A stretch of DNA of 64,000 nucleotides from NCBI GenBank assembly GCA_027574665.1, contig CM050658.1:20348317-20412316 (forward strand), given 5' to 3'. How positions within the stretch are numbered: the stretch's first letter is position 1; every line of letters begins with the position of its first letter. Shown here piece by piece: positions 5,845 to 64,000 of the stretch. Both the position numbers and the translations under genes were made by a program. The DNA comes from Rhynochetos jubatus (lineage: Eukaryota > Chordata > Aves > Eurypygiformes > Rhynochetidae). Under the pieces are notes generated by a model. It made no database searches and was not told the origin of the DNA. It worked only from the letters and a program-made list of their open reading frames with translations.

Positions 5845-6094
5845 GGGTCCGTTTTTGTCCGTGGTGTGCGAGCCTGCTTGCCCTGCCCTGTCCCGCGGGG
5901 GGGGGCGGGTGTGGACTCTTCCCCGTCCACCTTCCCTCTTCTCAGCGGGGATCCGCCCGGGGGAGGGTGCGGTGGGCGGCCCCTGGGGTGGGGCGGGGGG
6001 CGAGCGGGACACACACACTCCCACCCCCAGCGCGGTGGGTGCCCGCTGTGCTGCTGCTCTGAGCTTGCCTTTCCTCAGCGCCCAGCCTCGGGCG

Positions 6095-6440
6095 GCGGCG
6101 GGCGGTAGGATGCGGGGCGGGCGGTAGGATCCGGGGCGGGCTGTAGGATGCGGGCGGCAGGACGCGGGGCGGGCGGCAGGACGCGGAGCGGGCGGGCGGT
6201 AGGAGCCGGGGCGGGCGGTAGGATGCGGGCGGCAGAACGCGGAGCGGGCGGGCGGCAGGACCCGGGGCGGGCGGTAGGATGCGGGCGGCAGGACGCGGGG
6301 CGGGCGGCAGGACCCGGGGCGGGCGGTAGGACCCGGGGCGGGCGGCAGGACGCGGGGCGGGCGGCAGGACCCGGGGCGGGCGGCAGGACCCGGGGCGGGC
6401 GGGCGGTAGAACCCGGGACGGGCGGTAGGACCCGGGGCGC
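6095..6440. repeat. GC-rich minisatellite upstream of GMPPB
   Basis: About 18 imperfect head-to-tail units of 17-23 bp built on GCGGGCGGTAGGA / GCGGGCGGCAGGACSCGGG. The units differ mainly at GGTAGGA versus GGCAGGA and by an inserted GCGG. The array ends about 80 bp before the GMPPB start codon, inside its CpG island. The long minus-strand open frames rich in Pro/Arg/Ala over this stretch come from the repeat and are not genes. Confidence 0.85.
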
Positions 6441-6521
6441 GCGGGGGGCGTGTCGGTCGTCGGTGACGCGGAAGGCGCGCGCGGCGCTGACGTGTCGGTG
6501 CGGGCGCGGGGCGGCGGGGGG

Positions 6522-9028
<2,507 letters not shown>

Positions 9029-33500: not shown

Positions 33501-36500
33501 GCTCAGCAACAGCCACGACTCAGCAAGGGGTACCTACTCGAGGAACAGCGCTTGGCACCTGCCCCACAGCACACAGAAGATGTACTGGTCCAGCACATCA
33601 CAGCCAGGGACGGGTACAGAAGGGATGAAGTACAAGAGATAACATAAGAAGGATATTCTCAACACAAGAAGGGTATTGACCAGTTGGGAGCAAGTCCAGA
33701 GGAGGCCATGAAGATGCTCTGAGGGCTGAGGCACCTCTGCTATGGAGAAAGGCTGAGAGAGTTGGGCTTGTTCAGCCTGGAGAAGGGAAGGCTCTTGGGA
33801 GATCTTATAGCACCTTCCAGTGCCTGAAGTGGGCCTACAAGGAAGTTGTGGGGGACTTTTTACAAGGGCCTGTAGTGACAGGACAATGGGTAATGGGTTT
33901 AAAGTGAAAGGGGGGAGGTTTAGATTGGATATCAGGAAGAAGTTCTTCATGGAGAGGGTGGGGAGGCACTGGGACAGGTTGCCCAGAGAAGCTGTGGATG
34001 CCCCATCCCTGGAAGTGTTCAAGGCCAGGCTGGATGAGGCTTGGAGCAACCTGGTCTAGTGAAGGGTGTCCCTGCCCATGGCAGGGGGTTGGAACTGGAT
34101 GGGCTTTAAGGTCCCTTCCAACTCAAACCAGTCTGTGAATCTATGATTCTATGCCCAACTACCATGATTTCAACATAAGGATGTGGCTTGCTTTAGACTT
34201 TCTCAGGCCAGGATTAGCAAGGCTTCCCCATCCCCTCACCTGGGAGTTCCTCCATGCTGTTTACAGGGCTGAAGTAGTTCTTGAGTGCACTGTAGCTATT
34301 CATTGCCACGCTGAGGTAGAACTCGGGCATGAAAGCGAAGAGCGAGCCCGTCCTGTCTCCATGCTCAATGGTGCGGATGCACACTCGCAGCAGCCAATAT
34401 ATGTCCTGCATCTTCTCCTGCCAAAGAGAACACAACAATCCCTGTTCAGTTTTGTCCAGCTTCTCTTTGGAGAATCCTAACAGTCAGCACCACGCTTAGA
34501 CCTCAGAAACATCCCCATGTCCGACGTGTTCCTCAGACCACTGCTCTACGTTCGTTAACCAGACCTGGGCCATTCGGTCTTTTCACAGAGCTACAGAAGC
34601 ATCAGGGAGAAGGAACGATCAGAGATATCTATGTCAAGCTCAGAGCACGACCATCTGCAACGTGACATCAGGTCAACTGTGGCGTTGTCTCACTGAGCCT
34701 TGAAACCCCCCCAAGAGCTGCTCCTTGGTAGGGCACATCTGACCACACAGGCCTGATTGTAAAAACGGGCGTGCTAGTTTTTATTCCAAGAACACGGGCT
34801 GAAGGAGGGCAGGCACTAGCAAAACTAGCATAAATCTGCTGGAAAGAAAGCTGCTCCTTCGTAGGAGTTAAAGGAGAACAGGCTGAAAGCTCATACCAGC
34901 TCAGATCTTTGCAATAGGCGGCCACAGCCTTTCAGATTCTGTACCAGCCATTCAACCAGACTTACTGTCCTGAGGAACATCAGCCTCTTGCATCTCTAAG
35001 CAAAAGTCAGGGGGTCCTAAATTAAAACCAGGAAATTTAAGGGTATCTACATAACTTTAAGCTATAAAAATCAGCACCTACAAAGCCATAAAAAGAGGAA
35101 ATATTACTTCATATCCTGCAATGCCAAGAAATATCAAAAGCAATAACAATTTGCACTAGAACAGATGGAGGATTATACTTCTAATAAAAAAAACAAACGT
35201 AAAATCAGGGGTGCAGATAAGTGATTTCATTTGCTTAGCGGCTTTTCTAAAGTGTGTGGCTACCATCTTTGGGAGCCTTACCTGAGTTTGTTCAGATTAA
35301 CTAGTGTAAATCAACTCAACTGACTAAAAGACCTCTTTATCTCAACACTGACTCGGCTCAGCTGCTGCTTTCGGGATAAAAAGCAATTGTGCAGACAACA
35401 TTAAGGTAAAGGAAGCTGCATTTGGTTTTATTAAGACTTCATAACCTCAAAATGTCATCTCAGGTACTGCCAACCTAGCAGAAAGCCTACACCAAGAGGA
35501 TATAAAGATGTGATTACCCACAGCGTGGTGGATAAATACAGCATTGTAATAAAATACGCTGAAATGGTCTTCCCACAGGGATGTTTTGAAGGTGGGATTA
35601 TCTACTTTAAAACTAAGAGTATTTTTAAGGTGTAGTGCTCCCTTTCGTCTAACCTTGAACCCCTCAGCTTAGAATGAACTAGTGACTCATTCCCCTGAGG
35701 AAGGAGCAGCCCCTCGGTGCTCTGACATCTCAGCACAGAGCGAGACTTCACCCCTGGACAGAACCAGTCTCTTTTTCTCCCCCAGCATCAGCAATGCCTG
35801 CAACACTCGCACTGATGTGTCCCTCCAGTGCGTACAAGTCCCAGGGACGCAGCAGCCTGCTGAGTGGATGTCTCCATCGGGAAGCAGCAGGGACCTGTGA
35901 CGGCTGCGAGACGGAGCCCTGAAGGTACAGGCAGTATGGACAAGCTCCTCCGTGCAGCCACGTTTCTCTCCAGAGCGAGCGAGCTCGGCTCCTTGGGCAC
36001 ATTTCACAGCCCGAGCCAGCTAGGGACCTGCTCTCTCTGCCGGCCAAGCAGACCAAGGCAGGCACACAAGGCTGTAACCTTCACTCCCAGACGCTGCTGA
36101 TTCACCCAGAAAGGTGACACCGCAGTCTGATGGGGGGTGCTTAATACGACACTGGTGTTTAATACAACAATAGATCACCCAGAGACACGACCAGTGTTTC
36201 CACATGGGCCATTGCAGCACTACCTACAATGCACACTGGTAATGCCCCTCCGCCTTTCAAGAGTGGTCCGGGAGGAAAGGTTTATTTTCTGGCAAGCACG
36301 GGCTGTGCTAATGCAGCTGGAGAGCTTCTGCGGCGCAACACTGCGCTTTGCAATCCTGCTCTGAGGGAAGGAGGGGACGAGCAAAGAGGGCCTGAGTCAG
36401 GATCTACCACTGCAGCTCTGCCAGGCGTGTTCGTAGGAACTACTGCTCCTCCCCTCCCTGCTTCCATCCCGGGACATGTGCAGAGACCCTGCTACCACTG

Positions 36501-45500: not shown

Positions 45501-48500
45501 CTCACTGCCAGTGTCACCATTACAGATTTCTCTGTCTTCAACCCTTATTCCCTGGGTGCAAAGTAGCAGCCAGATGACTTAGGTGAGGGCAGGATACCAC
45601 AAAAAAGGGATCTTGCCACCAGGAAGAAAAAGAGGCTGATCACTACCAGCATGTTCTAGGGAAGGTTCCTGTCCTCAGCACCTCCCAGGGCCTCCCTGTG
45701 ATCCCTTGGGAGGAACTAGCACCCTAGCAACTCACCTCCATAAGAAGCCACATGAGATCCAGCAGCTGCTGAATAAGGGGATGGGCCTCCACTGCCCCTC
45801 CTCGTTCCAGGATGCTCAACAGGAAGGTCATCAGCACATCTTCCACCAGGTACACCTTGCACTGCAGAAAGCCAGGTCAACAGTCCTCCAAGGCACAGTC
45901 ACTCGCCAGCGAGAGCTGAATGTTCACCGCCCCTTGCAAGCACCATAACAGGCACCTACAGAAGCTCACAGTGGGCAGGCAAAACTCACCATGAGGGGAG
46001 AGAAGTAATTGAAGATGTGGGCTAGTGTAATCAACACCGTGGGTTCTCCCTGCAGCTGCCACATGGACGTGTCCTTCTCCACCAGCTTCCCCTCCTGCAA
46101 TGACAAACTCAGAAAAACACCTGGCTTGGAGCCAGCTCAATCCACCCATACCCCAGTGACTGGATGAACTGGAGGCCTGGAGCAGCCGCTGTTGGGTGCT
46201 CCATGCCCAACTGCAGTAAAGACCCTGAACTTGGGAATTTGGGATGGCAGAGCAGCCAGGCCCATGCCTCTGGAGAGCTGTAGTGCAGTCCAGGTGTCAG
46301 TTACTCTCAGCCACATGCAGGCACCTTGACAAGGTTTTTCCAAAAGGGTTCAAGTGTACATGATAATTTGTAAATTTGTAAATCCCTACAGCTGACAGGA
46401 GGTCAGCTAGTAAAGCAGGCCCCCAGCCCAGCCAAGAGCATAGCAGATGGCATTCCCTATGCCTTGGGCATAAACAGATCATCTCTTAAGCTAGCAGAAA
46501 AAAATGGTTCCTCCTGAACAGTCACAGCCAAAACAATTCTCAGGGCAGACCTGCCAGAATTTCATCACGTCATCGCGCCAGTTTAGGGTATGAACAAGCC
46601 TCTTTCAATGCTGCAAAATCAAATCCAGCAGCTCTGACCTTGACAAACATCACCTCTTGCATACTGGGAATGCAAATTCACAGGACTGAGAAGAACACAG
46701 CCCAGTGTGATTTAACTTTAGACCTGGAACTATCAGGAAACCCATTTTGCAAGCCAAAGAGCTGCAGGGACACGCGTGCTCCACGCAACAGCACGCCAGC
46801 ATTTAGAGTCTCGGGTGTGTGGAAACATCTGAGCTGCCAACATGTGCTGAGAAGAGCAGAACGACATTTCCCAGCATGGTGCCCCCAAGATCCACCCAGC
46901 GGCATTAGCCTACCGTCACATCTATTCCAATATGGATCACGTTCTTCAGGTAGCCTAACAGCTTGTGAGCCTTCACTAGGTCTGCAACAGGAGGATCTTG
47001 CAAGGGGTGGTAACCTTCCACTGGATAGGTAGGTAAGTGTTAAGGCAAAATGCAGTCTGATGCTTTCAGAACTTCTTTGTGCAAGGAAAAGACTGTCTCT
47101 GTTTACACTGTACTCACGCTTGCCTCAGTCACAGTTCAAACCACAGTGCCGTCTAAATGGACGATAACCCACAAGCTCTTATGCCCACTTCCTCCATATG
47201 GCAAGCAGTGAGTATTTCACGTCACACTTCTGCTCTCATCCAAAAGACTGACAGGAGCTGCCACTACAGCTATCGACAGGCACACCAGGACTGTTCCGAC
47301 AGGAGCTGCGGTTCTCAGCCTTCGCCCAGGAAAGCAGCAGGCAACGCTCCTACCACGTCAGAGGTCCTGAGTGGCTGGGAGGCAGAAGAGACCAGTGGGC
47401 AAGAGGCTCAGCAGCACAGCAGCATTAGGGTTTCCGAAACTGGAAAGTGAGATCTTTGCTGGATCTGAGTGCCTGGGAACGGGCAGCCCCCAGCTGCAGC
47501 AGTAGCTGCTGATTCAGAGCTGAAAGCCAATCTCATTTCACCATCTGTTGGGGACTGGCACTGACGTTCGTGCCCTGCAGCTCTGCTCCAGCTGAGGGGT
47601 ATCTGCTTCTTCTCTCCTTGACACTGCTCTCAGCATAGGTGCCAACAGAAGCAAGTGAACTGCAGTCAGGTATGTATATTCTACAGCCTCCAAAGATGGT
47701 CTCAGGATAGGCTCTTCTCCCTTCAGATCTCCTCTCCCCACACCTAAAGGATATCGGAGTGGACGGCTTCCGAAGTTAAAAGCCACGGACTCTTTGAAGG
47801 AGAGGCTGATGGCAGGGAAGTAAGCCATCCCAGCACCCCTTGTGATGTTATCAAAAGCGGTTCCCAGAGATATGCCGTTCCTGTAAGAAGGAAAACCCAA
47901 GATTTTAGTCACAGCAGGAGGGTTTCCAGGCCAGCTGGGCAACCCAGGTATCTGCATTTCCCTTCCAGCAACTTGCCAACAAGGACATTCACGCCTCCTG
48001 TCACTCTTAACCTGGCCACATGCAAACGTCACAGCCTTGCTGAGTGACAGCCACGGGAAGCACAGCAGCACTCCCCTTTTCTTACAACGGCACAGGAAGC
48101 CACTGGAGTCTGCACAACATGCAGAGCTCACTCAGCTTCAAGGGCAACCCAAATCCTTACGAGGTGACTAACCAGCCGGACATTTTAAAGGCAGGTGACA
48201 TTTTTGGCCTCATCCCTTTGACGTTGGTGGAAACAGAAGGATAGTGCTCTCAACCTACTCTTCTCTAACAGATCACATGAAGCATTTAATTCCGTCTGGC
48301 TTGTGGCAGGCTGTAGTTTAGGGCCAGGGAACAATTCTTATTCAGGCTGGCCAGTGCTCCTTGTGCACAGGAGTTGGAGGCTGGAGATTTATCAGCCTTT
48401 CCACAGCTCCTTGTAAAGAACCTAGGGCACGCAAGGCCTACACTGGCCACAGAAGCAATCAGTGTGGCCCAGCCAACTGTAGTATTAAGCATCATGAGAG

Positions 48501-51500
48501 ATCCCCCTCTCTTCCAAAATCCTAGCAAACGTTACACAGACTTCATAGCTTGAACATCTTTCTGCCAAATGCTCCCACTGAACTTAGGAGACTCAACAGC
48601 CTGTTTAGATGGTTTCTGAACACAAAGCAGAAAAGCAAAGGCTGGAACTACCAAGGAGCTTAAAGGGGAGGGGGCAGAAACAGGGCTCAGCAACCTGCTG
48701 AGCAGTGAGGAAACCTTTTTGTTACACACAGACATCAACAAAGCAGGGAACTGGGTCAAGATACTTACAAGCAGAAAGCGATGGTGCCCTCATCAAGGTC
48801 TATCAGACAGCTGACGATGTCTCCTGCTGCCCAAGACTGCAGTAAAGGGAGAGAGAAGGTTAAACATATATCCAGGGTGTTCCCACATCAGAAGAAAGAC
48901 TGCAACCCCAGCAATCCCTTGTGATCCAGCGTTGAAGAAGAGTGTTCCTTTTCACAGCAGCTCACGTTGCATTCTCAGGCACTTCTGGAAGCTGCACATA
49001 AGCCACTGGTTGGGAACTGTTTTTCCCTCCAGCACCAGGAACATTCACAGGATCAAACTTATATTTAACATGGCATCATCCTCTGATGTGCTACAGAGAA
49101 CCACAGAGACCAACAGCAACACTGTGCTAGGAATCAGTCTGCTGGGGCTGCTAAACAAAGCACACACATAGCATGTCCAGCACCCCCAGATTAGAAACAA
49201 TTGCCGGCACATAGCTGCTCCACGAGCAGACTGAAGCAGACAGGACAGCTTAAAGGCATTTCACAGGGCCCAGCAGAATCTAGTGAGCAGGAGGAGCCAT
49301 CTGCTTTCTTCTCCTGACTCTACATCCCATTCCTGGGAGGACAGCTACTCACTTTGCCATAGTTGGTAGTAGTCACATTCCACTTGCGCACCCGGTTTCC
49401 ATCATAGGCATATGAATCTGGCGTATCTCCAACCCCTTCCTGCATCGAAGTATGAAAGAGGAGACTTGAACCACACCAAGCATAGAGGATCCCTCTCATT
49501 GCAAGATCGGCTTTATTTCTGGGGAGGGGAAAACCAGGGGGAGACCAGCAGATGGGAAGAACAGCTCTGTCTGGAAAAAGCCCAGACTAGGAGTGAACCT
49601 AATGGCCTGTGATCTTTGGTTCAGAGAAATACACCATTCCCTACTCATCTTGGGGTCAGAAGAATAATACTGGCATACTACACTTCCACATTCTGTCAAA
49701 GCGGGCCCCAGGATGCCCATCACCTCCCCTGTCACGTGTTGCAGAGTGGCAAGTCACTGAAGCTCTGCAGCTGACGTCCCTTCCCAGCATCAAACATCCC
49801 ACACTGCCTGAGAAGAGCTGGCCTGGGCCTGCCTCTCCTGGGCAGCACCGGCTGTTGAGGGTTATCCTGAGAGACAGGCTGCCAGCACAGCAGTCCCACA
49901 CACTCTCTGGAGAAGATGCCAGCTGAAAATCAACACGTAGCAGTGGCTACATGCAGCAAGAGCACAGTGACGCACATCGCGTGCAGGGCTTTCACACTGT
50001 GCACCATCCTGTGAACACAGACCAGAGAGTCTTGTAAGGATTTTTCAAACAGCAAACCTGGTATTTTGTGTGTGCACCAAATGTCAGCAGGGCAGGAGCA
50101 CAGCACCAATGTGATGCTCCATGCTGACCTCAAAAGTAGTGGAGGAACAGAGAGCAGCCCTGTGCCATGTACAGCAGTTACACTACCTCCTGATTAAATC
50201 TGCAGTTGAGAGTACACCAGCCAATCTGCATGAGTCCCTGGGAGGAGATGAGCACCTCATAAATCCATTTCCCTGAAAGAAAAAGAGATGTCACACAGTA
50301 AATCCCTGTCACCTGGCTCATCGTTAGAGAAGCAGAACCTGACACTGCTCCCACAGAAATAAACGTGGCACACAAAGGAGCTTCAGGACGTCCCCAGCAT
50401 TCCCCTCCCACCTCTGCACTCCGGCATCACATAACTCTTCATCCTTCTGACTTCCTGGAAAAGCCAGCGGATGAACTGGGGAAGAAGAGGCTCAAGATTT
50501 GGAACTGCAACTTATTCAAGATTTCCTGAGCTCTCTAGTTGTGTAACTCTCCATACACTCTTCCCAGAGTCTTTGCTTGTTGTGGACCAGCTGGACAGGT
50601 CAGGTTCTCACGACCAGGTTCTCACAAACTGCACAAAGAGCTGAAGGTCTTGTTCTCACAAGACACGTGAGGAATTAAAAATACAGGATGTTGACACCAA
50701 AGGGGCTCAAGTCACAAGCTTGATAAGCTAACTGTAAGGCACTGCAGAGCCAAGCTTACAAAAGTTACAGTTATCAGCCTCACCTTTTGCAAAACACTGG
50801 GAGGGGTTTAGACTGCGGGAAACTACTGAATCTGTCTATAAAAACCCACACTGTAAAACAATAAACGATCTCGCTTGGTGCACATCATGCCGGGGTCCGT
50901 GCCCTCAAATCTCCGACATTTGCTCACAGCATCACTGGTTTATCTCCTCACCTTTATACACGCACGTCGTGGCCCTGATGGACCCAAAGTTACTGTGGCC
51001 AATCACCTGGACCAACAAACAAAAGGTAATTTAAAGTCAGACAAAAGACAGTTTTGCTCACCTTACCCATTCCCTCTGTCCTAGCCCTCAAAACCAAGCA
51101 CCAGGTAGACCTATTCACAAGCACAGTGTAGGGAAGGGACGGGACATCTTCCCCATCCCAGCAGCTGTACTCGGAGCAGACAGACCCTGGAGAATGATCC
51201 AGGTCCTCCCCACAGCTCACCTGTACTTGATAAACCTTTGACAAACCAGGGCAGCCTCCTCTGCTAGAGGTAAAAAAGGATATGTAGATTAAGAAGGGAA
51301 CGAGCATGGGAGCATGGGATGTGCATGCCCAGCGAAGGGGTGAAAGGAGTGCAGAAATTACTGAGGTAGGAAATGATTAAATGATTAAATGATTAAATTC
51401 TTTCAGCTGATGGTCTGCATGAGGAACATCAGCTAAGGAGCAAGCGGGGAGCTAGTGCAAACAAAGGAGAAAGGAAAGCCTCAGCTTCAGCCTCTTGGCA

Positions 51501-54500
51501 CCATTAGAGAAGACCAGAAGGAAGGAAGGAAGAGGCAGTGTGCTGGAGGGAGGGACAGGAAAACTGGCTGCTGGCCTCTCCTCTGCTTAACCAAGCTCTG
51601 CAGTGAGCCCCGGGGCCAGGGTAATCCTTTCACTCCCTCACAGCTCCACTCAGAGCTTTCTGAGACTCAGGGGTCCTGCTAGACCTTTCCCCAGGAGAGC
51701 TCATGTCCTCCAGGATCCAGCAGCTTTCTGGGCAGACTCCATTAACAGCACGCTACAAAGCCAGTGACGGAGATCTGTTATGAAGAACAAACCAAGACGC
51801 CCAAAATGCTTGTAGTCCCACACAACCATTTTCTGCCGCACCCAGCGTCACACTCACCCCAAGTAAGTCATCATCGACCAGGAGGAGCCCCTCAAAACCG
51901 CTCGTGTGGTCCAACACCACGGCAGCGGGACCAAGCCGGCCCTCTGCTACCTGATCTGAAAGGAGAGTTGCAGAAAACCCCTTAGGGAAAGTTGTGCGGG
52001 ATTTAACAGTACACCTCCAGCTAGACTACGACAGCACCTGGATTCCGCTGCAGTGGAGGAAGACTAAACCAGTGTTACCCGTGTTAGACCACGAGCACCT
52101 CAGGAAAGGAGACGCCAGTGAGGTCGAAAAGTAAGTTGTCACAGCAACACACCGGGTCTTAGCTATGCAGCATTCAGGTCGTACGTTGTTTTCCACGTCG
52201 CCTGAAAATGTCACTCTGGCAAAATTCAAAGACCAAACTAAACTCTGCGCCAAATATTTAGCCAACGTGTCACACTTCGATTGCAGCCAGCAAGAAAAAT
52301 TCTTTTTAAGAGAGGAGCCAAGTCGTATCCTGCCACATCCTGACTCATTCACGGAAACGGATGCTAGCAAGAATACAGGCTACAGCGTGAGGCTCAAAGT
52401 GAATACCTACAGTGGAGACCAGTATGTAAAAATTGTCAGCAAGCCTCTGCATTTCCCACTGAGGATAGCACTCCACACTGCTGGTCACAGCAATGGCTCT
52501 GCGTGTCGTTAGCAGTGACATACCTCCAACATTTGCCCCAAAACTGCTTTTCCAGGCATTTTTGCCTGGAAATATGCCTCCTCCATCCGCAAGCAGGCCT
52601 GTTCCAGGGCTGGATGATGAGGTACCCACCGGCAGGATTTAAAGGCACAATAAATTAGAGCACAGGAGGGCAGAACAACGCTCACTCAGGGAACTGCCTT
52701 TCATGATACAACTTGTCCTCCCAGTTAGGCAGCAACAAGCAGAAGCACAAATTGGACAGACACTCAGTGTCACCTACCTCGACTATCTTCGGAGCCATTC
52801 TCTGCTAGCAACCGGTCAAGGTGTTCCTGCAGGTTCTGGAACGTCAGGTGCTTCCTAGGGAATAAACGTGCACAGGAGCTCTTGAGAAAACTCTGTCTCC
52901 AAGTTTTAAAGAGTTTCAGCCCAGAAAACTGTGTCTGCACAGTCCTGCACTGAGACATGAACCGGGAAGTTCTGTCGATCTGTGTCTCTGGTCATGCATC
53001 AGGACTGTGCTGCCCAGCGTGTTGGGCAGTGAATGAACCAAGTACAGCGTGAACAAGCAAAGTAGTTAACAAAGGATCTTCAAGCCTTCAGTCTGCTCGG
53101 GAGTATTTTGTGGCAGTATGAAAACTGTAAGAAACAAGCTGCACCACCACCAACTGTGCACCTTGATTTTGCTGCAGTCAGCATCATACCATCATGGCAT
53201 AAGTCAGGATTAATCTGTTTCCCTCCCCAGGTATCTCATAATAGGAAAGAAGAGAGAAGACCACACCAGCAGCTGTAGCAGTTCCGATGAAGGTCAGGCT
53301 TGCCCAGCACCCTGACAACAGCCAAAACCATTTTGTTTTCATACGGAGAAGTTTCTCCTGCACCCTCCCTGGGCCACTGTTTTAAAGAACTTTCTCACAC
53401 TGTCCTCCCCCAGTTCTTTCTTTCCAAGGATTGTTTACTTAGCTATTCCTTGTACAAGAGCCGCTCCAGATGTGCGACTTGCTCTTACCCTGCCTCAAAA
53501 TCTCTGCTGCTCTAAAATACACTTTTGGAGTTGGCGAGACCAGAAGCACATGTTACTCGAGATGAGGGTAAACCACAAATTCATCCAGTGGCATAATGAT
53601 TTTCCTTATCTTACATCCCATTCCTAACAATTCCTAACTTCCTACTTTCTTCTTCTGACTTACTGAAGTCTTAGTATTCCCACCCCAACCTCACTCCTAC
53701 GCAGTAAAAATCAGCTCAGGGCCCAGCATCTGATGCACAACACTGAGGCTGTTCCCCTTGCAGTCCCTCACTCCGCATCTCCCTACGCCGAGGTTTGCAG
53801 ACCATTTCACTACCCGCTCACTCTCACAGCCACGTTACCTCTACAGTGCAGTTTGTAACAGCAGCAAACCTTCCCACCTCATGCTCTCTCCCTTTCCAAG
53901 TCTCCCAAGGATACATGGAACAGCACAGGTCATGCTGCAGGTCTTTGAGGGACCCCAGCAGCACCTCCTTTTACTGTGAGTGGCTAGTTGTTCCTATCCC
54001 TGCTTCCCATTTCCAAAGCCGCCTGTGGAACAACTTCCTGCCTCTCCAGGACTAGGGGTTTCCCTAAGACTGCGCTGAGAGGCATTTTGGAAGCCTGACG
54101 GATGCGAAGGTGCACAGAAGTGCAATCAAACCACATCGGTTTTGGTTGGCATGAGAGAGAGTGGCTTCAGCAAAGCAGCTTAATCGTCAGCTAGCATGGA
54201 GGAGAAGGTCTGGAAGGAGGTGAGATGGGCATGAGACAGCCAGAGAGATGTCTGCAGCAAGCTCCCCTGTGAGGAATTTAGGCCTCTGAAGAGAAGTTTC
54301 TCTCCATAAAAGCTGCTCTCACATGGCAAATGCTATTATCAAGACCTATTTGACTGCTACTGGGCTTTCTGCAACATAGCCAAGACTAGGGAAGAGGGTG
54401 GAAGGCAGGAAAAAAAGAGAGAGAGAGAGAGTCCAGTCCAACAAACTATCAGTTCTGTGCTTTCAAGTCATTAATCACCACACAAAGAAATTAGGAATAC

Positions 54501-56601
54501 TGAAAACCAAAATGCCCAGGCAGATGGAATATTCCGAGGCACGCTGGCAGGAGAGCTCTGGCAAAGTAACCTGACCCACTTTGCCTCCCCCCTGCCACAA
54601 ACCTAGCTCACCAAGAGCAGAGGGCCAAGGGCTATTTTTAGCAGCTCTGAGCTCACATTTGAGCTGGCAGTACTAAGTATAGCCCATGGAATGTGACCCC
54701 AGCCACTCTGCAGCACAGCCAACCAGCAAGAGCTACAGGCCTGCCTGGCTCTGCCACACTCCTACCTGCCCTGAACCTGTCTGACTCGCCCCTGGCAAAA
54801 GAGCTAAATGCAAGGAAATTTTTTTTCTCATCCAAAGCTGTAAGTTTCTGGGCTACACGGTGAAGGAGAACTGAATACAAATATAAGAAAACAGACACTA
54901 AACAGGAATTTTGTGTTTCTTTTCCCTTGGTGACTATGACTAAAAAAAGTACCAACAGTTCCACAGCCTAAGAAATGTACAGTATTCCACAGATAGTAAT
55001 AGCCTTGCCTTCAGTTTACAGGGCACTGACAACCTGTTTTTCATTCCTGTACCTAAAACTTGTGCACTTTGCACTTCCTTACACATGAAGAGGGAACAGA
55101 AACAATAAAGCAAATGCCTGCTGGCCTATTTATTTCAGAAATATTGCCTAGTGATCTTGTATATGGGGCTTTTCATACAAAAAAAGTCTGAAGAATCCTC
55201 CCTGGGAATGCTTGCAATTTGAAAAATCCATTAAAGGACAAGACCTGTAACACGGTGCTGCTGTGCTTTTAACAAAGATCACTGTGTGGCACTGAAAGAT
55301 CTTTCCTTTCACCGCAGCCTTGTCTGCCTGGGGACTGACACAGAATTGCTTGCCATCCAGTGAATGAGAAGGGGTCCGATACCTGTAAGCAGCTGCAGGC
55401 TGGTTCCCGTCAGCACTGGTAAAGACACGATGCAGATAATCATTCAGCAGCCTGCTGTTCACGATCCCTTGGGAAAAACCAGAAGGGAAATAAATTTACG
55501 GAGTCAGGAGGTAAACTCAAACATTAATTTCATGTACAAGCAAGAAATTGGTAACTACGGGAAAACGATGCTCAGGTTTGCAGATCAACACAGTGGAAAA
55601 CGCAGCTTCAAGAAGTCATTTATCACCCAACTGTCTTCACTAGCAGCCCTAGACTCCAGCATTATGGGGCACCCCTCCACAACGGGGCTCTTTCCAGTTC
55701 GAGCTGCAGATACAATAGCCAACGGGAGGCTATAAATTGGTCCCCACAGGTAGAACTACATCCTCAGGAATCCTGCTGTACCACTTCCAGATAAAGTAAC
55801 TTCAAAAGCTGGAGATGGGAACCCAATTTCATTACCAAAAAATAAGAATAAACTTATCACTACTACAATTCCTGACGCCTTATTCGTACCTGGGGCATTT
55901 TGAGTACCTACATCTTTTAACCGCACTAGAAGATGCTGAGATAGAAAGGCTTGTGGATGCAGCTCATCTCATCTAACCCACAGCCCTCTTTAATGACGTA
56001 TGCCTCGCTTTAGCTTCCACTGCGCAAAACAATCCCTAGTGTCACATTGATGCAGCATGTTTTATTTCTGGGTGCAACAGTGCCCTCAGATGCCAGATTT
56101 GTGGTCTCACAAGCACGCTTCCGCTGGATTGGTGAGTCCAAGAGAAAACAGACTGCCTAGCAGGTACCAGAATTTCCCAAAAAGGATTTCTCAGAACTCG
56201 AGAAGCTGTCCATCCTGGAAAGGGAATTCCCTGAATCAGATGGGACAAAGGCAGGCAACTCCACATTCTCCAGTCTCATGCGGCAGGCCTGTGTGCTGAA
56301 GAAAGGGCACTGTGACATGAGCTTCTGAAGTCCTTAGCACTACAGGAACACCCCTCCCAAAATCACATTTCAGCTCAGGGCTTTACTCAGTTTCGGCCCC
56401 ACCACACCTCGCATCAGCAAGACAACTGCAACTGGAAGGCAGCTGAGCTCAGGCGAGGCAAGGGGCACTCACCCGATCCACACTGGTCCTGCTTTTACAC
56501 AGCATGCACAGGCCCATACCTGTGACCTTGGACTTCTCTGGCTCAGTGCTCAGCCTGTAGTTCTTCCTCGAGAAAACAGTCCCAGCACCTCTGGACGTCA
56601 T
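9528..56601 (-). CDS. RNF123: E3 ubiquitin-protein ligase RNF123 (KPC1), complete coding region
   Basis: Thirty-eight coding exons run from ATG 56601-56599 to TAG 9530-9528. Their lengths sum to 3927 nt, an exact multiple of three, giving 1308 aa against 1314 in human. Visible parts: a short N-terminal region; a B30.2/SPRY domain at about 85-255; a long conserved helical middle; and a C-terminal C3HC4 RING with ligands C1255, C1258, C1270, H1272, C1275, C1278, C1289 and C1292, all present. In mammals KPC1 pairs with KPC2/UBAC1 to ubiquitinate p27Kip1 in G1 and processes NF-kB p105 to p50; it is cytosolic. Those roles are family knowledge. A non-coding first exon is expected in the CpG island near 59020-59110. 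The gene hosts AMIGO3 on the opposite strand in its fourth-last intron, as in mammals. Exon edges are in the three exon-block entries. Confidence 0.96.
10505..12097. other. Non-coding region upstream of AMIGO3 (RNF123 intron)
   Basis: GC-rich sequence, becoming a CpG island from about 11180. It contains an AT-richer island at about 11080-11135 with homeodomain-like TAAT/ATTA cores (CAAATTAG, CCTAATGG). A strong splice donor CAG|GTACGT at 11880-11885 may end a non-coding first exon of AMIGO3, but no clear matching acceptor is visible before the ATG. No other gene is seen. Confidence 0.5.
11180..12120 (+). promoter_or_regulatory. CpG island and probable AMIGO3 promoter
   Basis: About 0.9 kb of dense CpG and GC-box-like sequence directly before the AMIGO3 start, with no TATA box. 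The open frame upstream of 12098 is an artefact of the composition. The start site cannot be fixed from sequence alone. Confidence 0.55.
12098..13618 (+). CDS. AMIGO3: Amphoterin-induced protein 3 (LRR/Ig transmembrane adhesion protein)
   Basis: Single uninterrupted coding exon of 506 aa; human AMIGO3 is 504 aa and also has one coding exon. Order of parts: signal peptide about 1-30; Cys-rich LRRNT; six leucine-rich repeats about 60-215 ([39 protein letters not shown]); LRRCT starting [11 protein letters not shown]; one C2-type Ig domain about 285-370; transmembrane helix about 386-408; and a cytoplasmic tail ending [11 protein letters not shown], typical of AMIGO proteins. The chosen ATG has A at -3 and is followed directly by the hydrophobic signal segment. 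AMIGO proteins are plasma-membrane homophilic/heterophilic adhesion molecules, best known in neurons; AMIGO3 can pair with the Nogo receptor. AMIGO1 and AMIGO2 are excluded by position inside RNF123. Confidence 0.96.
   Translation: MSPRAAAAPLGPWVAKVVLLFQLCTRSCIAPAPPQRCPTACICTSDLLSCSRQALQRVPRALPPTATTLDLSHNALAQLHDRWLAALPHLEALHISHNQIKDLSPQAFHNASYLRHLDLSSNHLRAVETHYFDALVSLEELLLYNNHITRVDENAFAKLSGLRKVYLSWNNLTAFPFRSVQGLGNYSLRTLDLSSNSLSSIPVEELAALPENIRNGLYLHNNPVRCSCPLYLMLQRWKQQGFSSVKDFFEEHTCKVSDNVPRSLIKFLKYSHMFENCSAGPEDAHPVPFPAMVGQTLLLTCNTSLPAAATTYMWISPRHEPIKHPGNSNRSLEVYRNGSLKIAAAKPWHSGVYVGLAINSPRNFSRLCEVNVTVHYPRPDGETFSTGLTTLLGCIVSLLLVLVYLYLTPCRCPSCCKKTAPPSPRQECSAQSSILSTTPPATDGPNRKVSANKHVVFLEPVRETQNGKIRLALGEDFPDAKHPKVLQLKSDSESISSVFSDTPIVS
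14455..14460 (+). terminator. AMIGO3 poly(A) signal (AATAAA)
   Basis: Canonical AATAAA about 840 bp after the AMIGO3 stop, followed by a T7 run (14468-14476). It closes an abruptly AT-rich block (14375-14470) in otherwise GC-rich sequence, giving an inferred 3' UTR of 13619 to about 14480. Confidence 0.6.
14480..21885 (-). other. RNF123 intron downstream of AMIGO3, no gene seen
   Basis: About 7.4 kb of unique-looking intron sequence without a convincing exon, tRNA or CR1 element on either strand. The short open frames show no recognisable family. One AT-rich patch at about 17955-18010, with ATTAG and AATTATTTA cores, stands out as a possible regulatory element. Confidence 0.55.
24667..31302 (-). 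other. RNF123 6.6-kb intron, no gene seen
   Basis: Second largest RNF123 intron. The part from about 25600 to 28800 is clearly AT-richer than its flanks and may consist of old, decayed transposons, but I could not name a family. The run 26575-26645 (CAGATGACACTAA and on) resembles an internal CR1 fragment only weakly. The Lys/Arg-rich open frame at 27665-27886 has no known domain and is not called. Confidence 0.45.
31655..31935 (+). mobile_element. CR1 LINE 3' fragment (copy 1)
   Basis: About 280 bp matching the 3' tail of avian CR1: GACAGGACAAAGGGTAATGG, then GTTGCCCAGAGAAGCTGTGG, CTGGATGAGGCTTGGAGCAA, GGTCCCTTCCAACCCAAACC and the terminal ATTCTATG. It is 5'-truncated as usual and lies in the RNF123 intron between exons 28 and 29, antisense to that gene, about 50 bp from the acceptor of exon 29. 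Confidence 0.9.
33640..34153 (+). mobile_element. CR1 LINE 3' fragment (copy 2)
   Basis: About 510 bp in the same orientation as copy 1 and clearly the same subfamily, extending further 5' (AGGAGGCCATGAAGATGCTC, GTTCAGCCTGGAGAAGGGAA). It ends in the CR1 terminal repeat CTATGATTCTATG (34141-34153). It sits about 85 bp from RNF123 exon 26. The first part (33640-33710) is more diverged, so the 5' edge is uncertain. Confidence 0.9.
44925..45480 (+). mobile_element. CR1 LINE 3' fragment (copy 3, different subfamily)
   Basis: About 550 bp of CR1: GGGTCTGGAGCACAGTTCCT, TTCAGCCTGGAGAAGAGGAG, GAAATGGCCTCAAGTGGTGC, GGGCTGCCCAGGGAAGTGGT, TTAAAAGACGTGCAGACGTG and the terminal GATTCTACGATTCTAA. The tail differs from copies 1 and 2, including the short block GGACTTGGCAGTGCGAGGGT, so it belongs to another CR1 subfamily. 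It lies between RNF123 exons 12 and 13, antisense to the gene. Confidence 0.9.
51371..51399. repeat. Short 8-bp tandem repeat (ATGATTAA)
   Basis: Three to four copies of ATGATTAA in the RNF123 intron between exons 4 and 5. A GGAA run follows at about 51520-51535. Simple-sequence repeats of no evident function. Confidence 0.7.
54413..54431. repeat. (GA)n microsatellite
   Basis: A short poly-A then GA dinucleotide run in the 2.5-kb RNF123 intron between coding exons 2 and 3. Nothing else recognisable is seen in that intron. Confidence 0.75.
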
Positions 56602-56662
56602 TCTTCACAGGCACCACTTCCAGAGCGGACATAAGACAGACAGATGCCTAGATCAAAACCTG
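56602..56662 (-). other. RNF123: RNF123 5' leader in first coding exon
   Basis: The best acceptor upstream of the RNF123 ATG on the minus strand is CGTCCTCCCCAG ending at 56663, which would give a 61-nt leader segment in this exon. A weaker alternative is GATCTAG about 15 nt nearer the ATG. The leader must start in an upstream non-coding exon. Confidence 0.5.
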
Positions 56663-58379
56663 CTGGGGAGGACGCTGCCTTTACACTTCTCCCTTTCTTG
56701 GAGGTTGAGGCACCTGGATTGAACAACAGGGATAAGCCAAAAACATAGCCAGAGTCCTTGCACTAACGCCATCATACAAGAGCCCAAAGCCCACTAACTG
56801 CCAACCCTGCTCCCAGTCCCAGCTGTCCAACAGCGCAAAAATCTTCCCAAAGCAGATGAGGCATTAAGTCACACTCCAGACAACCACAGGCCCCCCTCCA
56901 ACCAAAGGCACAAGGCAGAACCAAGCCAGAAACACAGGCAACCTTAGCACCGAGTTTGAGCCAGAAACACTGAGCCAGCACGGGGCCGCTGCTACCACCA
57001 CTGCCAAATACCGTGAAACTGGCAACTGCATGGCACTTCCAGTCCTGCCCTGATGAGGCACTTCGGCCTCTCTCTCCCCCACTGTGTTCTTTGAGACAGA
57101 AATACGCACCTGGTTCATCTTCTGTTTAACAGGTTAGTAGATTATTCTGCTATCCAAAGCAGAGAGAGAGAGGGAAAGAGAAATGCAGATGAACTGGACC
57201 ACAAAAGAATGTAACTGACTACAAAGCAAAAGACCCAGAGACCGGCTGTCAGTTCTATAGGGGCAAAAGCAGATGCAAGTAGAAATACACAGAAGTGTTT
57301 ACAGGTGAAAACCTACCACGAGACTAAAGATTTGTGACCCTTCCTGGTATCACTAGAACGCAAAGGATCCCATCAGAGCTTATCAGACGTGTCAGGACAA
57401 AAACAACCAATTCAAGTTGCTAGTTCCCTCCAGCTTCAAAACGTTAGGTTACACTCCTCTCCTGTTTCTGATTGCCCCAGTAGCCAACCATCACTGGAAC
57501 TCTCTCGTTCACTAGACAGCCAGCTGACAAACCACTTTGGACTGACAAATCACACAGCAACAGGAAAATGCAACAGGAGCAAAGGCTGTGGGCATTAAAT
57601 GCTGGCTGGCAATCTCATACAGAGCAGAGGCTAAGGTGAACCCAAGAAAAGTTAGTGAACCTGCCGAGTGACGCAAATGCCACGGCAACTCCACTGGCAC
57701 TTGAGCTTCAGCTAGACTCGGGAAAGGATTTCCTAATGCCCCTTTTTTCAGGGCCACCCCAGCATCCAGCACTGGAGCAGCACTGCCCGGCATCCCTCCT
57801 GCAGCACTGCGGCCGAGCAAAACTGCAGGAACAAAGCAAAAAACAGCTTGGATCAACGGCCCTGAACGATCCGCATCCGAGACTCAAAACAAGGAATAAA
57901 ACAATTAAACTACAAACACAATGATTACTCCCAAAGCAGAGCAGACCGATGTGTACTATCCTCATAGTTCTCTAAACATGAAGACGTGATTCCACCTCTG
58001 TCAGGACAAGTTTAAAACACTCGAGGGTGGCGGGGAGTGCCCCCAGCTCTTCCCGAAGGTGGGCGGCTGGGTACCCATGCTGCTGAAACAGCCGGAATGC
58101 CCTGGCACAGAGCGCAGCATGGCCACACGGGCACCGTATGGGATGCACTGCTGCAGTGCCAGGGTGGGTTTTTTTCGGACGGAGCAGATGCTGCTTTCAG
58201 CAGGTCAGAGAAAGGGCAGGGCAGGGCAGGGGGACACACGGCTGCCCCTTTGCTGCTCCCATGTGCGAGTCACCACGGGTTAAACTCCCTTCTCTGGGCA
58301 GTGGCAAGCAGCTTCCAGCACAAGGGTAGAATAAACAACACGGGGGAAGCCAGATCTTAAACTGAGCCGAGAAGCTGGG

Positions 58380-59260
58380 CCAGCAACCACAGTTTGGTCC
58401 ACCAGCTGCAGACCCAGCCCCCCGCTCTGGCCAGGACGGCGGGCAGGAAGGCGGCAGGGACACAGCCGGGCGGCAGAGGCCCGCGCGACGCTCGGGATTC
58501 TGCCCTGTGATCGCGGCAAAGGCGGCTGTCTGCGACACCCCCAACCTGGCGGCACCCCCAGCGCAGACACACCGGGCAGCATTGCGCAAACCCAGGAACG
58601 GCCGTTAAAACCGGGCACAGCCCGTAGCCACAAGCCGGCGGTATGCGCCGAGCCGAGCCAAGCCCAAACCCAGAGACACCCTTAGACTGGGAAGCCCTCC
58701 CCGCGGCCACAGACAAACCCGGCGGCATCCTCCACGCCCAAAAACACGCCCCAAACCGGGGGTGCCGCTACAGCGGTCCGCAACCCCCACAGCCCAGAAT
58801 CGCCACCAGGCGCGGAGGCACCCCCCACCCTGGCACCGCCCCCCCAAAAGCGAACGATACTACCCGAAACCGGCAGCACCCTCGAGACGCCCCTGCCCGG
58901 CCCCCAGATCCGCGGTGGCAAGGGCACTCAGCGGGCCGGAACCAGCGAGAGCCCCGCAGTACCGGGACCAGAAGAGGGGCAGCCAACAGCGACGCAGGCC
59001 CTGCAGCTGCCGCACTCACCGCCGGCCCGGCCCCACCGCCTCCACCGCGGGGCTACGGCGAGCCGCGAGGGCCATGCCGGGCAGGCGCGCGCGGTCCGCG
59101 TTGCCGGGAGACGGTCGGCCGTGGCGCCCTCCAGTGCTAGGCGCTCGGCTCTGGGGGCGGGCCGAGCCGGGCCGGGCGAGGCCGCCTTCCCGGGGGCAGG
59201 GGCAGGGGCAGAGCCCCCCGGTGCCGGGGGTGGCTGTGAAGTTCCCCCGGGGAAAGTGAG
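58380..59260. promoter_or_regulatory. CpG island and probable RNF123 promoter
   Basis: Dense CpG sequence without a TATA box, containing a minus-strand splice donor GGCG|GTGAGT at 59020/59019, a good end for a non-coding RNF123 exon 1 (about 59020-59110). GTTGCCGGGAGAC at 59100-59112 resembles an RFX X-box half-site pair. The PHF7-like gene ends only about 350 bp upstream. The island's left half, to 58876, recurs at the right end of the window. Confidence 0.6.
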
Positions 59261-59450
59261 CAGGCTGCGGGGCCAGCGAGACCCAAAGCACACGGCCGTG
59301 GCGCTGGGCAGCCGACCAAGACCAGCCCGCAAGGAGGGAGGCCTGGGGAAGGTGCTGCCAAGCCCCGGGCTCGAGACGGCCCTCTGGGCCCAGGAGGAGG
59401 AAGCCGACAAAGGAGGGTGGAATCTCCCAGTGCAGAGATTAGCGGCCAGC

Positions 59451-59456
59451 TTTATT
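59451..59456 (-). terminator. PHF7-like poly(A) signal overlapping the stop codon
   Basis: Plus-strand TTTATT reads AATAAA on the minus strand, and its TAA (59454-59452) is itself the in-frame stop of the PHF7-like gene. This leaves a 3' UTR of only about 20-25 nt. Confidence 0.8.
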
Positions 59457-61370
59457 GTGCCGGTGGAGGGGGGTCAGGGCCAGCACTCGGGGACGGCGCA
59501 CGTCTGGTCCCGCGGCGGCGTGCAGGCCGGGTGTAGGGATTTTGGGCGCGGCACTGCACGCGGGAGAGGTCTCGCACCCGCTCAGGCCCAGCTCGGCTGG
59601 AGCGTCTGCTGCTCTGCAGCGCTGGGGAGCTGCAGGAGGACCCCAACGGCAGCTGTCTGTCGGTGCTGGGGCTGCTGGTCTCCGGTTGGATGGAGCCGTG
59701 GGACGGCCCCAGTGCTGCCAGGCTGGGGGTGCTGCTCTCAGCACTGGGTGCTGGCAGGCGGCTGCTCCCACGGCATCTTCTGCGCCGCCTGGAGGGATTT
59801 CGGGCCTGACGGTGTAACCGGGAGCGGTCTCGCACCCGCTGGGGCCCAGGGGGGCTGGAGAGGCTGCTGCCCTCGTGCTGTGGGGAGCCGGGGGACGACC
59901 CCGATGCCGCCTGGCTGCCGGGGCTGCTGGTCTCGGGTGCCGCGGAGCCGTGGGAAGGCCCCAGCCCTGGCTGGCTGGCAGCGCCGGGGCTGGCGAGGTC
60001 GGAGTCGGCACTGGAGACTGTAGGGGGAAGCAGGAAGGTCAAGGGCATGGCCCCTAGGCCCAGGGCAGGACAGGCCAGGGAGGTGCTCCCAGCCCTCCTG
60101 GAGCAGAGAGGCTCTGCCAAGCCCACGCTGGGCACCCGCTGCCAGGCCTTGCCTGGTCCCTGGCCCCAGCCCAGGGGCACCCGGGCGCTTTGCCTCTTAC
60201 CGGTGCCCAGGCTGGCACAGCTGTCGCACTGCCAGCTGGCCGTGCTGTCCCTCAAGGAGGAGCAGTGCCTGTGGGTGCTGTCGCCAGCGCAGGAGCAGCA
60301 CAGGAGCAGTTGCCAGGGCCTGGGGAAGCAAACGGGTTCACGGCTGTGAGGACAAAGTGACCGCAGCACGGGATGCTCCGCCCGAGCTCTTGTTCTCAGT
60401 TCTCCCCCTTCGAGCCCTTGGCGAGACAGAGGTCCTGTGCAGAGCCCCGGGGTGCAGCTTTGGCAACTTACCCCTCCTCCTCTGCGTGCTGCCTGCCTTC
60501 TGGGCAAAGGCACTCGCTGGCATTGCAGCGGCTGTGCCCCTCGCTCAGTTCTGCAAAGTCGTGGCTGCTCTCCCATGTTGGTAATCTAACGGAGAAAGGA
60601 AAAGGGATGAGCCCCTGCTGCCCCGGCAGAAGGCAGACGCGGGGCACTCCTGCTCTTTGCCCCCAGCCCTGCTTCCGACTCCTCCGTGAAGCTGAAGCCC
60701 AGGCCCGGGGCACAGCGGAGGGCGGGGATGGCTGGGGCAGGCCCTGGCACGGCAGAGCACTTGCACCCTCTGCTCTTGTGAGCTGGGCAGAAGGACACCA
60801 ACCTCAAGGGAACTCGGATCCCCATGTTGAACATTTCTGAGAGAAAGCAGTCCCTGTCTCTACAGAGGGGGCAGCGGAAGCACAGGATGCCCGCATTCAC
60901 AGCCTGTCCCTGCAGGAGAAACAGGAGGAGCAGGAGTGAGGCCCCGGTGCTGCTGAGCGCCTGCCGCGCCCCGCGCGCAAGGGAACGGCTCCTACCTGGA
61001 CGCAGCCCCTGTGGAACCAGGCTGATTTGCAGGCTGGGCACACCATGGTGCTGTAGGACATTCTGTCGCCCACAGGCTCCAGGCACATGAGGCAGGCGGT
61101 GTTCTCCTCTGGAGCCGCCTCCACTGTCTGCTCTGGGCGGTGCTCCCAGCAGAAGGCGCTGGGGGGCAGAAGAGAGGGATGGGTGAGCTGAGAAGCGCTG
61201 GGTCTTTCCCCAGTGGCGTGGTGGCCAGGAGGGGACAGGAGGTACCTGTACAGAGGGCCGTAGTGCGTGACGCATTCGCCCTCCGCGGCACAGGGCAGGT
61301 GGAAGCTGCGGCGGCAGCCCTTGTGGCAGCAGGTGATGGCGGCCCAGCGCTCGCCACAGACGAAGCAGTG
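59452..61370 (-). CDS. PHF7/G2E3-like PHD-finger protein, C-terminal six exons
   Basis: Exons in transcript order: 61246-61370, 60996-61158, 60803-60909, 60472-60585, 60201-60319, 59452-60017. Frame is kept across all joins (1194 nt, 397 residues). The first two encode the second half of an extended PHD module (HCFVCGERWAAITC, then CRRSFHLPCAAEGECVTHYG) and the next Cys-rich unit (CLMCLEPVGD, VCPACKSAWFHRGCVQ). Exons 3-5 hold a third PHD/RING-like unit (CPLCRDRDCFLSEMFNMGI; LLCCSCAGDSTHRHCS; WQCDSCASL). The long last exon is Ser/Pro/Arg-rich with two internal repeats. Mammalian PHF7 is a testis chromatin protein with histone ubiquitin-ligase activity and G2E3 is its relative; function here is inferred. 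The third exon uses a weak donor, GTTGGT. The usual N-terminal zinc-finger exons are absent: the duplication junction at 61438/61439 lies 68 bp upstream of the first visible exon. Confidence 0.85.
59470..59990 (-). repeat. Internal tandem repeat in PHF7-like last exon
   Basis: Two units of about 80 residues. Each starts LGPSHGS, runs through PETSSP and a serine-rich stretch, and ends RVRDxSR followed by A(R/Q)NP and an arginine cluster (first about 59770-59975, second about 59480-59710). The arginine clusters could serve as nuclear-localisation or nucleic-acid-binding segments; that is inference. Confidence 0.75.
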
Positions 61371-61438
61371 CTGGAAAGAGCAGAGCAGCCCCCGTCAGCG
61401 GCGGCCTCACGGCCACCACAGCCTGCCCCACAGCTCCC

Positions 61439-64000
61439 ACATGAGCTTCTGAAGTCCTTAGCACTACAGGAACACCCCTCCCAAAATCACATTTCAGCTC
61501 AGGGCTTTACTCAGTTTCGGCCCCACCACACCTCGCATCAGCAAGACAACTGCAACTGGAAGGCAGCTGAGCTCAGGCGAGGCAAGGGGCACTCACCCGA
61601 TCCACACTGGTCCTGCTTTTACACAGCATGCACGGGCCCATACCTGTGACCTTGGACTTCTCTGGCTCAGTGCTCAGCCTGTAGTTCTTCCTCGAGAAAA
61701 CAGTCCCAGCACCTCTGGACGTCATTCTTCACAGGCACCACTTCCAGAGCGGACATAAGACAGACAGATGCCTAGATCAAAACCTGCTGGGGAGGACGCT
61801 GCCTTTACACTTCTCCCTTTCTTGGAGGTTGAGGCACCTGGATTGAACAACAGGGATAAGCCAAAAACATAGCCAGAGTCCTTGCACTAACGCCATCATA
61901 CAAGAGCCCAAAGCCCACTAACTGCCAACCCTGCTCCCAGTCCCAGCTGTCCAACAGCGCAAAAATCTTCCCAAAGCAGATGAGGCATTAAGTCACACTC
62001 CAGACAACCACAGGCCCCCCTCCAACCAAAGGCACAAGGCAGAACCAAGCCAGAAACACAGGCAACCTTAGCACCGAATTTGAGCCAGAAACACTGAGCC
62101 AGCACGGGGCCGCTGCTACCACCACTGCCAAATACCGTGAAACTGGCAACTGCATGGCACTTCCAGTCCTGCCCTGATGAGGCACTTCGGCCTCTCTCTC
62201 CCCCACTGTGTTCTTTGAGACAGAAATACGCACCTGGTTCATCTTCTGTTTAACAGGTTAGTAGATTATTCTGCTATCCAAAGCAGAGAGAGAGAGGGAA
62301 AGAGAAATGCAGATGAACTGGACCACAAAAGAATGTAACTGACTACAAAGCAAAAGACCCAGAGACCGGCTGTCAGTTCTATAGGGGCAAAAGCAGATGC
62401 AAGTAGAAATACACAGAAGTGTTTACAGGTGAAAACCTACCACGAGACTAAAGATTTGTGACCCTTCCTGGTATCACTAGAACGCAAAGGATCCCATCAG
62501 AGCTTATCAGACGTGTCAGGACAAAAACAACCAATTCAAGTTGCTAGTTCCCTCCAGCTTCAAAACGTTAGGTTACACTCCTCTCCTGTTTCTGATTGCC
62601 CCAGTAGCCAACCATCACTGGAACTCTCTCGTTCACTAGACAGCCAGCTGACAAACCACTTTGGACTGACAAATCACACAGCAACAGGAAAATGCAACAG
62701 GAGCAAAGGCTGTGGGCATTAAATGCTGGCTGGCAATCTCATACAGAGCAGAGGCTAAGGTGAACCCAAGAAAAGTTAGTGAACCTGCCGAGTGACGCAA
62801 ATGCCACGGCAACTCCACTGGCACTTGAGCTTCAGCTAGACTCGGGAAAGGATTTCCTAATGCCCCTTTTTTCAGGGCCACCCCAGCATCCAGCACTGGA
62901 GCAGCACTGCCCGGCATCCCTCCTGCAGCACTGCGGCCGAGCAAAACTGCAGGAACAAAGCAAAAAACAGCTTGGATCAACGGCCCTGAACGATCCGCAT
63001 CCGAGACTCAAAACAAGGAATAAAACAATTAAACTACAAACACAATGATTACTCCCAAAGCAGAGCAGACCGATGTGTACTATCCTCATAGTTCTCTAAA
63101 CATGAAGACGTGATTCCACCTCTGTCAGGACAAGTTTAAAACACTCGAGGGTGGCGGGGAGTGCCCCCAGCTCTTCCCGAAGGTGGGCGGCTGGGTACCC
63201 ATGCTGCTGAAACAGCCGGAATGCCCTGGCACAGAGCGCAGCATGGCCACACGGGCACCGTATGGGATGCACTGCTGCAGTGCCAGGGTGGGTTTTTTTC
63301 GGACGGAGCAGATGCTGCTTTCAGCAGGTCAGAGAAAGGGCAGGGCAGGGCAGGGGGACACACGGCTGCCCCTTTGCTGCTCCCATGTGCGAGTCACCAC
63401 GGGTTAAACTCCCTTCTCTGGGCAGTGGCAAGCAGCTTCCAGCACAAGGGTAGAATAAACAACACGGGGGAAGCCAGATCTTAAACTGAGCCGAGAAGCT
63501 GGGCCAGCAACCACAGTTTGGTCCACCAGCTGCAGACCCAGCCCCCCGCTCTGGCCAGGACGGCGGGCAGGAAGGCGGCAGGGACACAGCCGGGCGGCAG
63601 AGGCCCGCGCGACGCTCGGGATTCTGCCCTGTGATCGCGGCAAAGGCGGCTGTCTGCGACACCCCCAACCTGGCGGCACCCCCAGCGCAGACACACCGGG
63701 CAGCATTGCGCAAACCCAGGAACGGCCGTTAAAACCGGGCACAGCCCGTAGCCACAAGCCGGCGGTATGCGCCGAGCCGAGCCAAGCCCAAACCCAGAGA
63801 CACCCTTAGACTGGGAAGCCCTCCCCGCGGCCACAGACAAACCCGGCGGCATCCTCCACGCCCAAAAACACGCCCCAAACCGGGGGTGCCGCTACAGCGG
63901 TCCGCAACCCCCACAGCCCAGAATCGCCACCAGGCGCGGAGGCACCCCCCACCCTGGCACCGCCCCCCCAAAAGCGAACGATACTACCCGAAACCGGCAG
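61439..64000. repeat. Tandem duplication unit, copy 2 (runs off the window)
   Basis: A 2562-bp direct copy of 56315-58876 with no indels. I found two substitutions: 56510 A versus 61634 G, and 56954 G versus 62078 A. That is about 99.9% identity in non-coding sequence. The window ends inside the copy, so whether a second PHF7-like gene follows cannot be seen. Confidence 0.93.
61644..61725 (-). other. Second copy of RNF123 first coding exon
   Basis: Identical to 56520-56601, including ATG, 27 codons, phase-1 end and the intact donor GTATGGG. On the minus strand it lies upstream of the PHF7-like exons. It could act as an alternative first exon for RNF123 by splicing over the PHF7-like gene to the exon at 55467. 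Splicing instead to the PHF7-like exon at 61370 would be out of frame (phase 1 into phase 0). Whether it is transcribed is unknown, and it may be an assembly artefact. Confidence 0.6.

Follow-up and report, generated by a model that had tools for sequence, protein, structure and literature searches.

The array described here joins a series of large PHF7 families that have previously been reported from birds. One study predicts 63 PHF7 co-orthologues for chicken, 38 for zebra finch, 17 for turkey and 6 for duck, and reports that the chicken copies are expressed in testis (PMC6609395); others give 60 chicken copies, of which 16 lie on chromosome Z (PMC12794477), describe an expansion in turkey and cite chicken clusters on five chromosomes (PMC10360393), or state that the expansion was not found in the canary (PMC4373106). 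Loss of PHF7 is reported, in a review, to leave male mammals infertile (PMC12751476). By analogy with the function described in the literature, the PHF7 of this study would be an E3 ligase that ubiquitinates histones in the testis or male germ line. Tandem gene arrays under concerted evolution, the other system relevant here, combine a homogeneous interior with more divergent edges.

The window analysed is a stretch of 64,000 nucleotides from Rhynochetos jubatus, and its right end is very probably the edge, on the RNF123 side, of a young tandem array which comprises 34 copies of PHF7 and which grew by a founder duplication, deletions, exchange and conversion. As in the other avian expansions, the copies are many and their clusters lie on more than one contig (34 on C13, which holds the window, and at least 11 on C22). 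Unlike those expansions, the repeated unit contains the 5' end of RNF123 and appears to have exchanged sequence with the native gene. RNF123 sequence within a PHF7 array was not named in the titles and starts of abstracts of the literature matches listed, and the only paper found to carry both gene names mentions them in lists of genes that are unrelated to each other. As in arrays under concerted evolution, the interior is homogeneous and the edges are more divergent; unlike in such arrays, one edge consists of a promoter region that belongs to a single-copy neighbour, and similarity was not seen to fall with distance inside the array.

Extent and composition of the array

The window corresponds to positions 20348317-20412316 of a 26.2-Mb contig (C13) in a genome of 1.33 Gb, so that its right edge is arbitrary, and its last 14 kb were therefore examined together with the next 200 kb (214,000 bases, with no N). 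The sequence-only reading had claimed a near-identical repeat at an offset of 5124 bp, and this repeat is indeed real: 56315-58876 matches 61439-64000 over 2562 bp, with two substitutions (56510 A/G; 56954 G/A) and no indel. Similarity is lost abruptly to the left of 56315/61439, while on the right the match stops because the window does, and both copies run on beyond it; that 5124 equals twice 2562 is a coincidence set by where the window was cut. Unit 1 of the array (56315..61438, 5124 bp) comprises the native RNF123 5' end and PHF7 exons 4-9, and unit 2, which begins with a second RNF123 5' end (61439..64000), continues to contig position 20414878. Compared over all 5124 positions, these two units show 15 differences.

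Searching with the 5124-bp unit, we found the PHF7 part 34 times and always in the same orientation, copy number and order being those of a single assembly. The array spans 20404631-20588446 (183,816 bp), between RNF123 on the left and, on the right, a flank which encodes a Shisa_N domain and whose gene we take to be SHISA5. All 5124 bases are kept in units 1 and 2 only. Unit 25 keeps bases 1-1749 but not 1750-2806, and the remaining 31 units lack both 383-1623 and 1750-2806, with 15 of the 31 also lacking 1-266. In the window, the 1241-bp segment 383-1623 lies at 56697..57937 (present in units 1, 2 and 25, missing from 31 of 34) and the 1057-bp segment 1750-2806 at 58064..59120 (missing from 32 of 34); loss of the latter removes most of a CpG island (see below). 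An origin from a retrocopied, spliced RNF123 transcript was rejected, the two missing segments being without GT-AG ends.

The units also differ in what lies 5' (to the right) of the PHF7 body. RNF123 sequence follows directly in 11 of 34 units, at a junction between PHF7 intron 3 and RNF123 intron sequence which in the window falls at 61438|61439, this occurrence being one of the 11. A 2.4-kb piece, X, is found there in 15 units, X plus a further 4.8 kb, Y, in seven, and in the last unit (34) X continues into the right flank. Breakpoints are shared among units: 5124|1 occurs after 11 of them, X|267 follows 15 and Y|1 seven. X measures 2404 bp (2364 in unit 29) and carries PHF7 exons 1-3; Y consists of about 1 kb of right flank followed by RNF123 sequence of window positions 51262-54428 and 55688-56314. 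The segment 51262..54428 (minus strand) is thus present in the seven 10-kb (X+Y) units, and the founder duplication proposed below has its left end at position 51262 of this segment's window coordinates. A three-unit pattern, consisting of a 267-type unit without exons 1-3, a 1-type unit without them, and a 1-type unit with X or X+Y upstream, occurs three times in succession in units 14-22 (C13:20465244-20494516).

In a genome-wide protein search for PHF7, in which 135 of 375 candidates were scored, all PHF7-like rows among the matches listed were on C13 or C22. The C22 cluster (10.110-10.150 Mb) comprises at least 11 places spaced by 3.8-4.9 kb; the main stretches of the four examined out of 11 are 98.4-99.6% alike and encode PHF7-like exons, and one of these four has a further 0.5-kb piece which is 94% alike to the others. 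Other repeats of the window include two GC-rich minisatellites, at 6974-7540 (52-bp unit, 10.8 copies, 92% matches) and 6092-6444 (19-bp unit, 18.7 copies, 76% matches), and a dispersed pair at 31664-31926 and 33862-34134 (89% identical over 273 columns), which has a further relative beyond the array.

PHF7 copies and the neighbouring RNF123 gene

An alignment-based exon model of PHF7 was built from the last unit and comprises nine exons and 476 residues. It contains PF13771 (zf-HC5HC2H; residues 41-128, 54.6 bits versus a cut-off of 29.1), the related PF13832 staying under its cut-off (25.8 versus 27). The zinc-finger gene that had been read as PHF7-like is PHF7 itself, since it matches the solved structure 8jwj_A over query residues 12-285 of 288 (E 1.2e-62), the sole non-PHF7 protein among the matches listed being PHF6 (E 1.5e-7). 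The model resembles the solved PHF7 structures (8jwj, 8jwu) along the zinc-finger part, which presumably consists of an extended PHD, a RING and a second PHD, and departs from them in exon 9, which encodes a long serine-, proline- and arginine-rich tail outside the aligned query. In unit 1, whose PHF7 copy is without exons 1-3, the gene lies on the minus strand and starts with exon 4 at 61246..61370, followed by exon 5 (60996..61158), exon 6 (60803..60909), exon 7 (60472..60585), exon 8 (60201..60319) and the last coding exon, exon 9 (59452..60017), whose stop codon overlaps an AATAAA.

Exons 4-9 are open and of equal length in all 34 copies, with AG and GT at every site. Exons 1-3 are kept in 23 copies, and RNF123 5' sequence takes their place in the other 11, hereafter called headless. 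As exons 1-3 encode residues 1-79, the 23 complete copies alone have the entire extended PHD; these exons are intact even in unit 29, next to a 40-bp deletion in X. The GC-rich bins of X at 1601-2000 (GC 0.74-0.82, CpG observed/expected 0.70-0.89) are, from their composition, possibly PHF7's own promoter.

On the RNF123 side, a human RNF123 N-terminus, used as a tblastn query, matched successive exons on the minus strand at 46995-56601, and the N-terminal exons and SPRY domain were found in the expected order (PF00622, E 8.9e-30 for manually joined exon fragments). A PDB search with these fragments gave no RNF123 among the best 60 of 63 matches, those listed being SPRY domains of other proteins, with ryanodine receptors first. 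The first coding exon, which the sequence-only reading had placed in the unit, indeed lies at 56520-56601 and, as an identical second copy, at 61644-61725, both on the minus strand, with 82 coding bases and a phase 1 donor; the second copy points into PHF7 exons 4-9 of unit 1. Upstream on the same strand, a CpG island at 58401..59200 (GC 0.67-0.82, CpG observed/expected 0.77-0.95 in four 200-bp bins) is, judged by composition, the probable RNF123 promoter, and most of it is deleted in units 3-34. Only unit 1's PHF7 copy has the RNF123 5' region upstream of it in full, CpG island included, the ten further headless copies having an upstream RNF123 remnant without most of the island.

History of the array and rival explanations

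The structure of the present array is observed in the assembly; the order of events that we infer from it is as follows. PHF7 would ancestrally have stood between RNF123 and the SHISA5-like gene. A founder segment of about 13.6 kb, from window position 51262, inside RNF123, through PHF7 to contig position 20591864, would then have been duplicated in tandem at a 4-bp microhomology; TGCT is indeed common to the right flank and RNF123 at the founder joint. One copy would next have lost three RNF123-derived pieces (about 1.26, 1.24 and 1.06 kb), including most of the CpG island, to give a 10.0-kb unit. Two further deletions would have produced a 4.9-kb unit with PHF7 exons 1-3 and a 2.8-kb unit without them, the 61438|61439 junction being the breakpoint of the latter. 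Unequal exchange would have mixed and multiplied these unit types, and conversion from the native RNF123 5' end would finally have brought RNF123 sequence back into unit 2 and, partially, into unit 25. The near-identical pair at the window's end may thus be a consequence of the conversion of unit 2. A young segmental duplication, one of the two readings proposed earlier, is upheld in that PHF7 travels together with the RNF123 5' region and first coding exon. The RNF123 pieces of all seven X+Y segments are 99.12-99.21% identical to the native gene (16-19 mismatches in 3170 columns) which, at neutral rates of 2-4e-9 per site and year, suggests an age of the order of one million years, to be taken as a lower bound because conversion resets divergence.

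The last step is suggested by the distribution of differences. Units 1 and 2 differ at two of the 2966 positions 1-2966 and at 13 of the 2158 positions beyond (2967 onwards; Fisher p 8e-4), and at seven sites of the body unit 1 stands alone versus unit 2 and the other 32 copies. Unit 25 is identical to native RNF123 over bases 1-1749, whereas 3170 columns of the RNF123 piece directly to its left show 17 mismatches (Fisher p 7e-4) and a further 627 columns show 2. These tracts are consistent with the native RNF123 5' end having converted array units, a direction which we infer. A rather unlikely alternative, which leaves the remaining history unchanged, is that unit 2 never lost its RNF123 segments and was kept like unit 1 by repeated exchange: unit 2 does adjoin the native gene, and the left boundary of its tract depends on a single polymorphic site, position 196, where unit 2's base occurs in nine of 16 short-type units and the native base in seven. 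However, differences are about nine times as frequent in the adjoining body as on the RNF123 side, and a native-identical stretch is likewise present in unit 25, inside the array, both of which argue for conversion. The least probable reading is that of an artefact, in which two haplotypes or an overlapping contig end were wrongly joined, as the sequence-only reading had offered, or the array was inflated by the assembler. The source is a single assembly and exact duplicates exist (31 of 34 body sequences are distinct), but a haplotype join would give two copies rather than 34, the copies fall into several unit types with both shared and private variants, and the array sits inside the 26.2-Mb contig with no N in 214 kb, so that a faulty join is not supported.

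Two readings give RNF123 a larger part than does the growth of a PHF7 array. It had been proposed that PHF7 spreads with a borrowed RNF123 promoter, and the corresponding explanation here is promoter capture, in which unit 2's RNF123 promoter was retained to drive unit 1's PHF7 as a chimeric gene. The structure of that copy fits: the complete 5' region of unit 2, with CpG island, first coding exon and donor, immediately precedes unit 1's PHF7 exons 4-9, which are open and share its orientation. The other 33 copies are without a complete RNF123 5' region, however, most of the CpG island being gone from 32 of 34 units, and unit 1's PHF7 copy is without exons 1-3 and hence without part of the extended PHD. 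On the protein side, the donor of the RNF123 first coding exon has phase 1 whereas the acceptor of PHF7 exon 4 has phase 0, and the fusion, translated for three of the 11 headless copies (native RNF123 exon with units 1, 3 and 10), is predicted to run out of frame and to meet a stop at codon 140, so that the PHF7 frame is lost and no PHF7 fusion protein is expected. Promoter capture is accordingly very unlikely. Somewhat less improbable, though still unlikely, is that RNF123 is coupled to the array, its native promoter and first exon serving as the terminal unit and exchanging sequence with the rest, and that the headless copies are transcribed from RNF123-derived starts.

Variation among copies and its meaning

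Under the favoured history, the 23 complete copies would raise PHF7 dosage in the male germ line and the 11 headless copies would be by-products. Across exons 4-9, the 34 copies hold 25 codon variants, 11 synonymous and 14 nonsynonymous (pN/pS 0.40), and exons 4-8 alone hold four and three, respectively (0.20). The ratio is 0.35 in headless copies (8 and 9 variants) versus 0.49 in the 23 complete ones (7 and 11); headless copies thus look no more decayed than complete copies, which does not favour the by-product reading, although recency and conversion could leave them undecayed. Purifying selection is not apparent from diversity, which among the 34 copies is not lower in exons (0.0040) than in non-exon columns (0.0037), introns alone giving 0.0013.

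Some copies are exact duplicates, and mean divergence is higher at the array edges (0.0088 in unit 1, 0.0063 in unit 2 and 0.0048 in unit 34) than the median of the other 31 units (0.0034). Divergence rises weakly with distance when each of the 34 copies is included (rho 0.153, a value reached in 24 of 2000 permutations); with units 1 and 2 left out, no rise was found (rho 0.056, 359 of 2000), and local exchange inside the array is therefore not supported.

If RNF123 were indeed coupled to the array, its 5' end would differ between individuals, and headless transcripts might yield, for example, regulatory RNA or an N-terminally shortened PHF7. The array keeps traces of its own growth, in the form of a founder joint, nested deletions and conversion-like tracts, from which the expansion of a family of this kind can be reconstructed; it also lets the effect of exchange on a single-copy neighbour be tested.
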